From: Promicromonospora thailandica
GTDB lineage: Bacteria > Actinomycetota > Actinomycetes > Actinomycetales > Cellulomonadaceae
Assembly: GCF_024171955.1 (NCBI RefSeq)
Contig: NZ_JAMTCS010000004.1
Span: forward strand, 1 to 64,000
DNA: 64,000 nt
Direction of reading: 5' to 3'
The notes beneath the pieces are model-generated. The model searched no databases. It was not told the DNA's origin and saw only the letters and a list, made by a program, of their open reading frames with translations. Below are positions 53,386 through 56,523 of this stretch, piece by piece. The position numbers and the translations under genes are program-made. The number at the start of each line of letters is the position of its first letter. Position 1 is the stretch's first letter.

Positions 53386-53414
53386 CAGCGCGGCATCCGG
53401 GACGAGGAGGTCAC

Positions 53415-54458
53415 ATGTCACCTAGGCTGCCAGGCGTGCGCACCCGACTGACCGACCTCGCCGAGCAGGCGGGCGTCTCCACCGCGACCGTGTCGCGCGT
53501 GCTCAACGGCAAGCCCGGCGTGGCCGGCGAGACCCGCCAGGCCGTGCTCGCCGCCCTGGACGTGCTCGGCTACGAGCGACCGTCCGCCCTGCGCGCGCGG
53601 CCCGCCGGCCTCATCGGCCTGGTGGTCCCCGAGCTGTCCAACCCGGTCTTTCCCGCGTTCGCGCAGGCCATCGAGTCGCAGCTCGCCTCGCGCGGGTACA
53701 CGCCGCTGCTGTGCACGCAGTCGCCCGGCGGCACCACCGAGGACGAGTACGTCGAGACGCTCATCGACCACGCCGTCGACGGCATCGTGTTCGTGTCCGG
53801 CAAGCACGCCGACACGCGTGCCTCGACCGAGCGCTACCAACGGCTGCGCGGCCGCGGGCTGCCCATCGTGCTGATCAACGGCTACGCCGAGGGCATCGAC
53901 GCCCCGTTCGTGTCGCCGGATGACAGCGCCAGCATCGAGCTGTCCGTGCGGCACCTGGTGGCGCTGGGCCACCGCCGCATCGGCATGGCGATCGGGCCGG
54001 ACCGGTTCGTGCCCGCGAAGCGCAAGATCGAGGCCTTCACGGCGCAGCTCGTGCGGCACGGCCTCGCGGCCACCGCGGAGGAGGCCCGCGAGCACGTCAG
54101 CCTCACCCTCTACACGCTGGAGGGCGGCCAGGCGGCGGCCGGCGAGCTGTACGACGGCGGCCACACCGCCGTCGTCTGCGGCTCCGACCTCATGGCGCTC
54201 GGCGCCATCCGGGCCGCGCACGCGCGCGGGCTGTCCGTGCCGGACGACGTCAGCGTGGTCGGCTACGACGACTCACCGCTGGTCGCGTTCACCGACCCGC
54301 CGCTGACCACGGTGCGCCAGCCCGTGGCCGACATGGCCCACGCGGCGGTCAGCGCCCTGCTCACCGAGATCCACGGCGAGCGCGCGCCCCGGTCGGAGCT
54401 GCTGTTCACGCCGGAGCTGGTCGTCCGGGCCTCGACGGGCGCCGCGCCCCACGCCTGA
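53415..54458 (+). CDS. malR: LacI-family repressor MalR
   Basis: A 347-residue LacI regulator. HTH: RLTDLAEQAGVSTATVSRVL (about residues 10-29), hinge ERPSALRARPAGLIGLVVPE, then the two-lobed effector domain with GIVFVSGKHAD and ICG-type AVVCGSDLMALGAIRAA, VVGYDDSPLVAFTDPPLTTV. ATG follows GAGGAGG by 4 nt. It stands between malE and the alpha-glucosidase and has matching dyads at both promoters; it should release DNA on binding maltose or a derivative. Confidence 0.93.
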   Translation: MSPRLPGVRTRLTDLAEQAGVSTATVSRVLNGKPGVAGETRQAVLAALDVLGYERPSALRARPAGLIGLVVPELSNPVFPAFAQAIESQLASRGYTPLLCTQSPGGTTEDEYVETLIDHAVDGIVFVSGKHADTRASTERYQRLRGRGLPIVLINGYAEGIDAPFVSPDDSASIELSVRHLVALGHRRIGMAIGPDRFVPAKRKIEAFTAQLVRHGLAATAEEAREHVSLTLYTLEGGQAAAGELYDGGHTAVVCGSDLMALGAIRAAHARGLSVPDDVSVVGYDDSPLVAFTDPPLTTVRQPVADMAHAAVSALLTEIHGERAPRSELLFTPELVVRASTGAAPHA

Positions 54459-54460
54459 GC

Positions 54461-54674
54461 GGCGCCCTTCAGGCGCCCCGCCGCCGGCGCCGAGATCTGG
54501 TGCTGCGCCGCTGAGGCCGCGCCGAGATCTGGTGCCGCACCGCTGAAATCTGGTGTCCACGCTGAGATCTGGCCGTGCGCCACCAGATCTCGACGCCAGC
54601 ACCAGATCTCGGCGGCGGGACACCAGATGTCACCGCGGCGACCCGGGCACCAGATGCGGCGCCCTTCAGGCGCC
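54461..54674. repeat. 214-bp structured repeat: 4 direct + 4 inverted 11-mers flanked by a 17-bp direct repeat
   Basis: GGCGCCCTTCAGGCGCC occurs exactly at 54461-54477 and 54658-54674. Between them GAGATCTGGTG-type motifs lie at 54492, 54524, 54545 (GAAATCTGGTG) and 54564 (GAGATCTGGCC), then on the other strand CACCAGATCTC at 54581 and 54600, CACCAGATGTC at 54621 and CACCAGATGCG at 54648. Spacings (32, 21, 19 then 19, 21, 27) are nearly mirror-symmetric. It makes up most of the 328-bp non-coding gap between malR and the alpha-glucosidase. No coding potential is seen. Confidence 0.9.
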
Positions 54675-54731
54675 ACCGGGCGGGAGTCCGTGACCTGGGC
54701 CGGCGGTCCGTCGGGAAGGAATCCTCCCGTA

Positions 54732-54746
54732 CGCTTGCTGCAAGCG
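54732..54746. promoter_or_regulatory. MalR operator before the alpha-glucosidase (CGCTTGCTGCAAGCG)
   Basis: A perfect 7-1-7 palindrome 41 bp before the GTG start. It shares CTTGC/GCAAG with the sites at 53347-53385 and is the expected MalR operator for this gene. Confidence 0.75.
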
Positions 54747-54786
54747 TTACACCGATAATCCCCCCGACCCTCGAGGACGCGACCAC

Positions 54787-56523
54787 GTGACACGCACCAC
54801 CCCGCTCACCATCGCCGACCTGACCGCGACGCGCTCCGTCCACTCCCCCGCCCCAGGCGGCGAGTGGTGGCGGGACGCCGTGATCTACCAGGTCTACCCG
54901 CGCTCGTTCGCGGACGGGAACGGCGACGGGATCGGCGACCTCCCCGGCGTCACCGCCCGGCTGGACCACCTGAAGCAGCTCGGCGTCGACGCCGTCTGGC
55001 TCAGCCCGTTCTACCGCTCCCCCCAGAAGGACGCCGGGTACGACGTCGCCGACTACCGCGACATCGACCCGCTGTTCGGCACGCTGGCCGACTTCGACGA
55101 GATGCTCGCGGGCGCGCACGAGCGCGGCCTCAAGGTGATCGTCGACCTCGTGCCGAACCACTCCTCCGACCAGCACGTCTGGTTCCAGGAGGCGCTGGCC
55201 GCCGCGCCCGGCTCGGCCGCGCGCGAGCGGTACATGTTCCGCGACGGCCGCGGCCCGGCGGGCGACGAGCCGCCGAACAACTGGCAGTCCATCTTCGGCG
55301 GCCCGGCCTGGACGCGCCTGGCCCCGCGCGAGGACGACGGCGAGCTGGGCCCGCAGTGGTACCTGCACCTGTTCGACTCCACGCAGCCCGACCTGAACTG
55401 GGAGAACCCGGAGGTCCGCGCCGAGTTCGAGGACGTGCTGCGGTTCTGGCTCGACCGGGGCGTGGACGGCTTCCGCGTCGACGTGGCGCACGGCATGGTC
55501 AAGGCCGACGGGCTGCCCGACTGGGACGGCAAGGCCGCCATGGTCGAGGGCACCGTGGCCGACGACGGCTCCACGGGCGCCGGCAACAGCGGCCCCATGT
55601 TCGACCAGGAGGGCGTGCACGACATCTACCGCGCCTGGCACCAGGTGCTGGCCGAGTACGACGGCGACCGCGCCCTGGTCGCCGAGGCCTGGGTCGAGCC
55701 CCTGAGCCGCCTGGCCCGGTACGTGCGCTCCGACGAGATGCACCAGGCGTTCAACTTCTCGTTCCTCACCACGCCGTGGGACGCGGCCACGATGCGCACC
55801 GTCGTCGACGTGTCGCTGCAGACCATGGAGTCGGTCGGCGCGCCCACCACGTGGGTGCTGTCCAACCACGACGTCGTGCGGCACGCGTCGCGCTTCGGCC
55901 TCCAGGAGATCGGCGGCCGCCAGCTCAACGGCATCGGCGCGGACGACCCGCAGCCCGACGCCGCGCTCGGCCTGCGCCGGGCCCGCGCCGCGACGCTGCT
56001 CATGCTCGCCCTGCCGGGGTCGGCGTACGTGTACCAGGGCGAGGAGCTGGGCCTGCCGGACCACACCGCGCTGCCCGACGACGTGCGCCAGGACCCGTCG
56101 TTCTTCCGCACCGGCGGCGCCGAGCCGGGCCGTGACGGCTGCCGCGTGCCGCTGCCGTGGGTCGGCGGCGCGCCGGGCAACGGGTTCGGCCCGAGCGAGA
56201 AGACCTGGCTGCCGCAGCCCGACGCCTACGCGGACCTCGCCGCCGACCGCCAGTACGGCGTCGCGGGCTCGACGTACGAGCTGTACCGGACGGCGCTCGA
56301 GCTGCGCCGGGCCGAGAAGCTCGGCACGAGCACGCTCGCCTGGGTCGACGCGCTGTCGGCGGACGCCGACGTCGTCGCCTTCCAGGTCGCGGGCGTGACC
56401 GTGGTGGCCAACCTCGGCACGACGCCGCTCGCGCTGCCGGCCGACGCCCAGGTGCTGGTCGCCTCCGGCGAGCTGACCGACGGCGCCCTGCCGGGCGACA
56501 CCACGGTCTGGCTGCGCGCCTGA
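54787..56523 (+). CDS. Alpha-glucosidase / oligo-1,6-glucosidase, GH13
   Basis: A 578-residue cytoplasmic GH13 enzyme. The barrel begins WWRDAVIYQVYPRSFADGNG (residues about 28-47); catalytic residues are nucleophile Asp232 in GFRVDVAHG, acid/base Glu300 in VAEAWVEP and Asp362 in LSNHDVVRH. The QVYPRSF and NHSSDQHVWF stretches fit the oligo-1,6-glucosidase/alpha-glucosidase subfamily, which cleave maltose and maltodextrins from the non-reducing end. GTG at 54787 with GAGGAC upstream. It belongs with malEFG and MalR functionally, and a MalR-type dyad lies just upstream. Confidence 0.93.
   Translation: MTRTTPLTIADLTATRSVHSPAPGGEWWRDAVIYQVYPRSFADGNGDGIGDLPGVTARLDHLKQLGVDAVWLSPFYRSPQKDAGYDVADYRDIDPLFGTLADFDEMLAGAHERGLKVIVDLVPNHSSDQHVWFQEALAAAPGSAARERYMFRDGRGPAGDEPPNNWQSIFGGPAWTRLAPREDDGELGPQWYLHLFDSTQPDLNWENPEVRAEFEDVLRFWLDRGVDGFRVDVAHGMVKADGLPDWDGKAAMVEGTVADDGSTGAGNSGPMFDQEGVHDIYRAWHQVLAEYDGDRALVAEAWVEPLSRLARYVRSDEMHQAFNFSFLTTPWDAATMRTVVDVSLQTMESVGAPTTWVLSNHDVVRHASRFGLQEIGGRQLNGIGADDPQPDAALGLRRARAATLLMLALPGSAYVYQGEELGLPDHTALPDDVRQDPSFFRTGGAEPGRDGCRVPLPWVGGAPGNGFGPSEKTWLPQPDAYADLAADRQYGVAGSTYELYRTALELRRAEKLGTSTLAWVDALSADADVVAFQVAGVTVVANLGTTPLALPADAQVLVASGELTDGALPGDTTVWLRA

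Follow-up and report, generated by a model that had tools for sequence, protein, structure and literature searches.

Extragenic Palindromes and Their Protein Partners

REP sequences, together with BIMEs and REPINs, are short extragenic palindromes that lie behind genes or between convergent genes, often in opposed sets, and are species-specific (PMC3733652). According to the available sections of that article, the REP repeats whose partner is known all go with a single enzyme class, the tyrosine transposases known as RAYTs, some RAYT genes are flanked by their own repeats, and CGTC repeats are without a partner. Intergenic stem-loop families also cluster at 3' ends and in convergent gaps; as far as the accessible text of their description goes, they are not linked to a bracketed gene (Petrillo et al., 2006; PMC1590033). 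Inverted repeats are also bound by AbiEi, from the AbiE type IV toxin-antitoxin system. In the portions of the source at hand, AbiEi binds such repeats as two monomers and regulates its own gene through them, and four repeats can be bound simultaneously by Rv2827c (PMC7319586).

The Promicromonospora palindromes described here share with REPs their small size, their extragenic location behind genes, and copies that flank a gene. Unlike REPs, they are built of four boxes at a 19-nt pitch, and the flanked gene encodes an AbiEi-like protein. The GTAG/CGTC tag of REPs is absent from their core consensus. A RAYT partner was rejected, as the Y1 transposase domain (PF01797) is found in none of the 13 genus genomes, with 5 of 14 control genomes positive. 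The N-terminal half of the partner protein fits AbiEi models. However, it carries an additional C-terminal third, and its repeats lie on both sides of the gene and are scattered genome-wide. Like MITEs, the palindromes are small, non-coding, and dispersed, with inverted ends, but no transposase was noticed beside them (Y1 being the sole class searched). In a limited literature search, neither these palindromes nor a gene of this kind bracketed by repeats was described, and the palindrome and its bracketed gene may form a new kind of mobile repeat system.

The Eight-Box Array Behind malR

The window is the whole 64,000-nucleotide stretch of P. thailandica DNA that was analyzed. The array lies between the gene of a malR-like LacI-family regulator (53409..54458, + strand; PF00356, 2e-14; PF13377, 6e-36), whose start codon is unsettled, and that of an alpha-amylase-family enzyme, the “glucosidase” (54787..56523, + strand; PF00128, 4e-103). 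From the letters alone, an earlier note had described a mirror-like array of four forward and four inverted 11-mers, and both the boxes and their spacings are as it reported. The array spans 54492..54658 without assigned strand, begins 34 bp behind malR, and is in tandem rather than convergent orientation. On the + strand, outer boxes 1 (54492..54502) and 2 (54524..54534) are GAGATCTGGTG, followed by core box 3 (GAAATCTGGTG, one mismatch, 54545..54555) and core box 4 (GAGATCTGGCC, two mismatches, 54564..54574). On the − strand, core boxes 5 (54581..54591) and 6 (54600..54610) are exact, outer box 7 is CACCAGATGTC (one mismatch, 54621..54631), and outer box 8 is CACCAGATGCG (54648..54658). The last has three mismatches to GAGATCTGGTG, and the other seven have at most two. 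The start-to-start gaps are 32, 21, 19, 17 at the center, 19, 21, and 27. Boxes 3 to 6, with two 8-nt spacers and the center GTGCGC, form a 66-nt core unit (54545..54610) that aligns gap-free with 60 other cores and matches an element of another Promicromonospora genome (G001) at 84%.

The array is more than a chance arrangement. The host genome (G000) holds 103 exact copies of the 11-mer GAGATCTGGTG (41 forward, 62 reverse) and that of P. citrea (G008) holds 70, and a reversed control word is found in neither. One strand of the array folds better than all 200 dinucleotide shuffles (z −7.7 as RNA, −6.6 as DNA). The core, with a fold z of −4.5 that 1 of 200 shuffles equaled, is more mismatched and folds less stably than three intact copies, which fold at −61 to −63 kcal/mol. 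Rfam returned nothing over the gathering score for positions 54300-54900, where the matches were sub-threshold microRNA models only.

The direct repeat that the earlier note had placed at both array ends is exact over its 17 bp and can be extended to 19 bp. The two copies of this sequence, GCGGCGCCCTTCAGGCGCC, lie on the + strand at 54459..54477, directly after the malR stop codon, and at 54656..54674. The 17-bp repeat has no further exact copy anywhere in the host genome. When 60 bp on each side of 51 arrays were compared, the longest word shared by the flanks was 19 bp here and 10 bp at the next array. Because the 50 other arrays share at most 10 bp and the genome has no other exact copy, the 19-bp bracket is local to this site and not a feature of the family. 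It was ruled out as the family’s element end or target duplication, being found at a single site and at 1 of 51 arrays. Thus, of the two repeats in the array, the boxes are dispersed and the bracket is unique. Unlike MITEs, 50 of the 51 arrays lack a target duplication, the window’s 19 bp being the exception.

Nothing suggests a specific role for the array in maltose regulation. A near-palindrome, GCTTGCTGCAAGC, lies at 54733-54745, upstream of the glucosidase gene. Here GCTTGCWGCAAGC is exact in five of nine species compared, and the others differ from it by one or two bases. We take GCTTGCTGCAAGC to be perhaps a MalR operator, and a likelier one than the array.

A Dispersed Four-Box Family in Promicromonospora

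The family unit is 66 nt long, with the plan box(11)-8-box(11)-6-box'(11)-8-box'(11) and core start gaps of 19, 17, and 19. Its consensus starts with GAGATCTGGTG and ends with CACCAGATCTC. Exact cores number 22 in the host genome, 24 in P. citrea, 4 in G003, 3 in G001, and 1 in G007, and are absent from the other eight genus genomes. The exact pattern is therefore present in 5 of 13 genus genomes, and in none of 208 other genomes of the family. With up to two mismatches, the three richest genomes hold 27, 34, and 10 cores and the other ten hold 0-7, some of them plainly chance matches. A scan of genome contigs with the core pattern returned 94 stretches. Among the 80 of these 94 that were listed, 16 belong to P. 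citrea and 4 to other Promicromonospora, with at most three in any other species.

The P. citrea contigs G008:C77 (at its end) and G008:C232 (at its start) break at palindromes or within 10 bases of them; because contigs stop there, copy number in draft genomes may be undercounted. The four-box pattern had no match in viral contigs, one other-genus element had none in plasmids, one P. citrea element had none in phages, and the partner gene was absent from viral contigs and phages. On these empty searches, carriage by phages or plasmids was rejected as the route of spread. A second dispersed family, GTACAGGTC..GACCTGTAC, was likewise rejected in that exact form, with one copy in 1 of 61 genomes.

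Beyond the core, arrays of boxes at helical-turn spacing have grown in the host species. Outer boxes in the same direction are separated by gaps of 21 (44 cases), 32 (11), and 42 (17), close to multiples of 10.5 bp. None of 2000 random sets was as periodic, and a 9.8 period with an offset fits slightly better than 10.5. A binding platform accounts for such spacing better than a bare mobile repeat does. The proposal that the whole array folds as one long cruciform stands in part: spacer pairing is present but specific to the 66-nt core, and the outer boxes advance in steps of about 10.5 bp rather than in mirror symmetry. The window array is a worn, lengthened, non-coding copy of this four-box palindrome family, which we lean toward reading as REP-like with an AbiEi-like partner.

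Nearly Invariant Boxes and Drifting Spacers

Boxes and spacers evolve differently. Of 73 candidate cores, 10 were dropped, including two real elements of G003 with a shifted outer box (L083 and L088). One of the 63 kept lacks a full flank, which leaves 62, and the omission of L050 from alignment A1 leaves 61 rows. Across the 63 copies, each of the first nine columns of every box holds one base in about 93-100% of cases. Among 62 copies, 51 distinct left spacers occur.

The two spacer arms nevertheless remain paired. Pairing is found in 73% of cells vs. 56% with the arms shuffled; the excess is clear in P. citrea and in the pooled G003, G001, and G007 copies and small in the host (0.655 vs. 0.605). 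In the 61 aligned copies, both sides have changed in 82 cells vs. 32 (sd 5) when shuffled, and the covariation score is 0.159 vs. 0.084. This pairing is specific to the 66-nt core: neither the central ten bases nor the flanks show a pairing excess, and no pairing extends beyond the core.

Comparison of 15 orthologous core pairs, some of them from the same locus, gives the same picture. Box positions are identical at 30-40 of 40 sites, with at least 36 in 12 pairs and 75-85% in the three least conserved. Spacers differ as much as in unrelated copies (0.50 vs. 0.54), and at 33 of the 120 paired positions both bases have changed in a compensating way. Since elements persist at these orthologous sites across species, turnover is slow. 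Either selection or template switching could maintain the spacer pairing, and the data favor neither.

The Same Architecture With Other Boxes

A covariance model of the core found matches at E ≤ 0.01 in 49 of 221 family genomes (8 of them Promicromonospora) and in 11 of 25 genera. These counts are rough because both strands of a palindrome can match and at most 23 candidates were scored per genome. Inspection covered 40 loci with 41 matches in 13 genomes, 3 of them Promicromonospora. The inspected loci have four boxes at unchanged spacing with other letters, such as GAGATCGGT, GATGTCGGTAG, and GAGATCGTG. Their spacer pairing is high, and within single genomes it is not clearly above that of shuffled arms. 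In G004, locus L378 carries a twelve-box array with another box and outer gaps of mostly 30-32; it looks as if its growth had arisen separately.

Placement Behind Genes

In these soil actinobacteria, palindrome copies sit behind genes, often between convergent ones. The background, taken from the host genome only (codon-score script, 800 kb, gaps of at least 20 bp), comprises 67 convergent, 262 tandem, and 121 divergent gaps. With 5 of 62 cores unplaced, 57 cores from five genomes remain, and they comprise 24 convergent, 30 tandem, and 3 divergent copies. Convergent placement is in excess (24/57 vs. 67/450, p = 7e-7), divergent placement is rare (3/57 vs. 121/450), and 22 of the 30 tandem cores lie nearer the 3' end of the upstream gene. 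In the other-box set, 16 of 41 copies were unplaced; of the 25 with a placement, 17 lie in convergent gaps, 4 in tandem gaps, and 4 in divergent gaps. A greater perfection of convergent than tandem copies was rejected: it holds in the host (p = 0.007), does not in P. citrea (p = 0.74), and falls short of significance by rank test in the rest (p = 0.11).

This placement speaks for an alternative in which the palindromes are host 3'-end elements, whose hairpin, formed in RNA from either strand, ends, protects, or insulates convergent transcripts, with boxes conserved for a helper protein. The doubly changed, still paired spacers and the stable folds of the intact cores agree with it, as does one convergent site where G001 and G003 have the element and several other species have hairpins that are unrelated as judged by eye. 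However, TTTT follows within 15 nt of the hairpin in none of 32 flanks (convergent copies outside the host genome), and in tandem copies G-U mismatches are no more frequent than A-C mismatches (34 vs. 33), so that the G-U bias that would mark RNA selection is missing. The absence of a U-tract and of this bias argues against a plain intrinsic terminator. In the host genome alone, an array occupies only 5 of the 67 convergent gaps, and convergent gaps are 5 of 17 array gaps (p = 0.15; p = 0.04 for gaps of at least 100 bp). Where P. citrea carries one of its elements, the corresponding gap in G010 is bare and about 10 bp long. Moreover, a plain hairpin needs neither invariant boxes nor a bracketed gene. 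We consider this explanation unlikely.

Separately, hairpins with TGTCAGACG(T/C)(A/T)CAGGTC were seen at two unrelated convergent sites (L217 and L218, in G007 and G011; L248 and L249, in G006 and G009) and are perhaps another palindrome family.

The earlier suggestion of a structured RNA or attenuator in a malR-to-glucosidase transcript finds no support. The family lies behind unrelated genes, the malR-glucosidase gap has no terminator-like site, and the G-U excess is missing. At this gap, seven of eight other species compared lack the array, and P. citrea has an apparent decayed remnant. In four further species, the BLAST pieces on either side are at most about 46 bases apart, which leaves no room for an array.

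A Partner Gene Bracketed by Palindromes

When the genes beside elements were clustered, no family recurred across more than two genera, and the partner gene was chosen because its cluster reached two. It encodes a little-studied AbiEi-like protein of about 310 aa and lies between two palindromes in the host genome (G000:C14:65005-65982), in P. citrea, in G003, and in G181, from another genus. A homology-only sample of 12 other loci, matching the gene part of the query among the matches listed, has palindromes on both sides in 8 cases, on one side in 2, and on neither in 2. In the 8 doubly bracketed loci, both palindromes are within 430 bp. In total, 12 of 16 loci in two genera are bracketed on both sides. 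Among 225 control genes of 250-400 aa (800 kb of the host genome, limit 450 bp), 1 had palindromes on both sides and 29 on one side. The single doubly bracketed control is the partner gene itself, and with it excluded the Fisher p is 2e-12, a value to be read knowing that the 12 homologs are non-independent, with about four palindrome types, and that the gene-flank control comes from one genome. Together with the dispersal of the boxes and a copy number that varies by species, this bracketing supports the idea of a mobile or amplifying intergenic element.

Gene and palindrome also match in sequence. In the 12 fully bracketed loci, left and right palindromes are 0.83-0.96 identical, and all 12 left palindromes have a box pitch of 19 nt, despite wide sequence differences between the types. 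Protein identity correlates with palindrome identity (Mantel r = 0.64, reached in 0 of 5000 permutations; 13 loci, two of them one-sided), and two unlike paralogs of the partner gene in one genome have different palindromes. Protein and palindrome diverge together. Among the matches listed, only the host, P. citrea, and G003, the three genomes richest in exact cores (22, 24, and 4), carry the GAGATCTGGTG-type gene at its locus. G001 has half a palindrome at the empty partner-gene site, and both G001 and G007 have cores and no close copy of the gene among the matches listed.

Individual loci add detail. In G011 (L251), the gap that holds the partner gene in other species contains a palindrome made of GGTCTCGACAGGCTCGACCACCG-type repeats. 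In G004 (L387), the partner-gene frame is broken (138 aa to the first stop), and palindromes are still present on both sides. Both L383 and L384 have paired inverted words beyond the right bracket, which suggest a third palindrome of matching type.

Paired flank repeats extend to distant homologs. Six of seven such named homologs (Tsukamurella, Arthrobacter, Nonomuraea) have palindromes or words of at least 15 nt common to both flanks. One is flanked by GCTGCC four-box units with start gaps of 19-13-19, one on each side and the only two in 6.75 kb. L398 and L402 have palindromes on both sides, the second one of L398 being weak. At L400, one flank holds a palindrome and shares an inverted word of 15 nt with the other, and L401 and L403 have 18-22-nt words common to both flanks. 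No paired flank repeat was detected at L399. Gene limits in L398-L400 are estimates, as those stretches are without annotation. At the thresholds used, L391, L393, and L399 are unbracketed, L393 having two isolated half-words.

These observations also bear on a second alternative, in which the AbiEi-like protein uses the bracketing copies to repress its own gene, and the scattered phased arrays are additional binding sites that block or insulate transcription or shape the nucleoid. It is consistent with AbiEi autoregulation through inverted repeats, as far as the excerpted account goes (PMC7319586), with near-invariant boxes whose 19-nt pitch is constant while the box sequence changes, and with the periodic gaps, including the 30-32 spacing of the G004 array built from another box. 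It leaves unexplained the copies downstream of the gene and behind unrelated genes, the pairing of the spacers, and an exact core number that ranges from 0 to 24 between species of one genus, and the slightly better fit of a 9.8 period counts against it. Autoregulation is a serious rival for the bracketing copies and does not account for the scattered ones. As an explanation of the whole family it seems improbable.

The AbiEi-Like Protein as a Candidate Nuclease

PADLOC gives an AbiEi match to the partner protein (E = 4e-13, residues about 13-181). The Pfam model AbiEi_1 (PF09407) is over the cut-off in the one member shown in full and matches 2 of 15 members at E up to 1. AbiEi_4 (PF13338) matches 13 of 15 (best E = 4e-4) and is below the cut-off in the member shown. 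NCBIfam has no match for the protein, Pfam finds no nuclease domain in it, and solved structures give no match below E 0.1. No toxin gene (DUF1814) is among the annotated neighbors in four Tsukamurella loci.

The last third of the protein contains invariant E193, D224, E235, D237, and K241, which we read as a putative PD-(D/E)XK arrangement. Three distant Tsukamurella homologs are annotated as DUF559, on a match that covers query residues 118-242 only, and another is annotated as AbiEi-family. This motif and the partial annotation suggest that the protein is possibly a nuclease.

A Proposed REP-Like System With a Different Partner

The explanation favored here, with moderate confidence, is a REP-like system whose partner is an AbiEi-like protein outside the HUH class. 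Its N-terminal AbiEi-type half would bind single boxes, as AbiEi does its inverted repeats, and its C-terminal third would cut or nick at the palindrome. Repair or template switching could then copy the palindrome, alone or with the gene, to new sites, which would also keep both arms complementary. Most surviving copies would be those immediately behind genes, where the harm is smallest and where they might serve as two-way 3'-end hairpins. Location at 3' ends may offer a refuge, reflect a function, or do both.

Several points weigh against this explanation. Movement is read here from comparison of sequences, and 50 of 51 arrays lack a target-site duplication. The slow turnover at orthologous sites, the cores of G001 and G007 with no close gene copy among the matches listed, the unbracketed homologs, and the helical spacing of outer boxes also count against it. 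Bracketing could also be autoregulation. A decaying repeat with no present activity is very improbable: the mismatched window core and the apparent remnant at the malR site of P. citrea would fit it, but at least 90% of box positions are identical in 12 of 15 orthologous pairs while the spacers have turned over.

A broader form of the REP-like explanation is more tentative. The palindromes and their gene might be a new class of mobile element across Actinomycetota, in which a protein combining a winged helix with a PD-(D/E)XK-like domain disperses the four-box palindrome that belongs to it, a hairpin whose arms carry two boxes each, and each paralog co-evolves with a private box. The scattered copies would now be 3'-end structures, extended in some species into helically phased arrays.

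If the REP-like explanation is true, extragenic palindromes would have a second, unrelated partner protein, and its co-evolving palindromes would provide a natural series of protein-site pairs. AbiEi-like/DUF559 genes would gain a function. The system would also permit a direct test of the way in which extragenic palindromes spread and of the reason for their settling behind genes.
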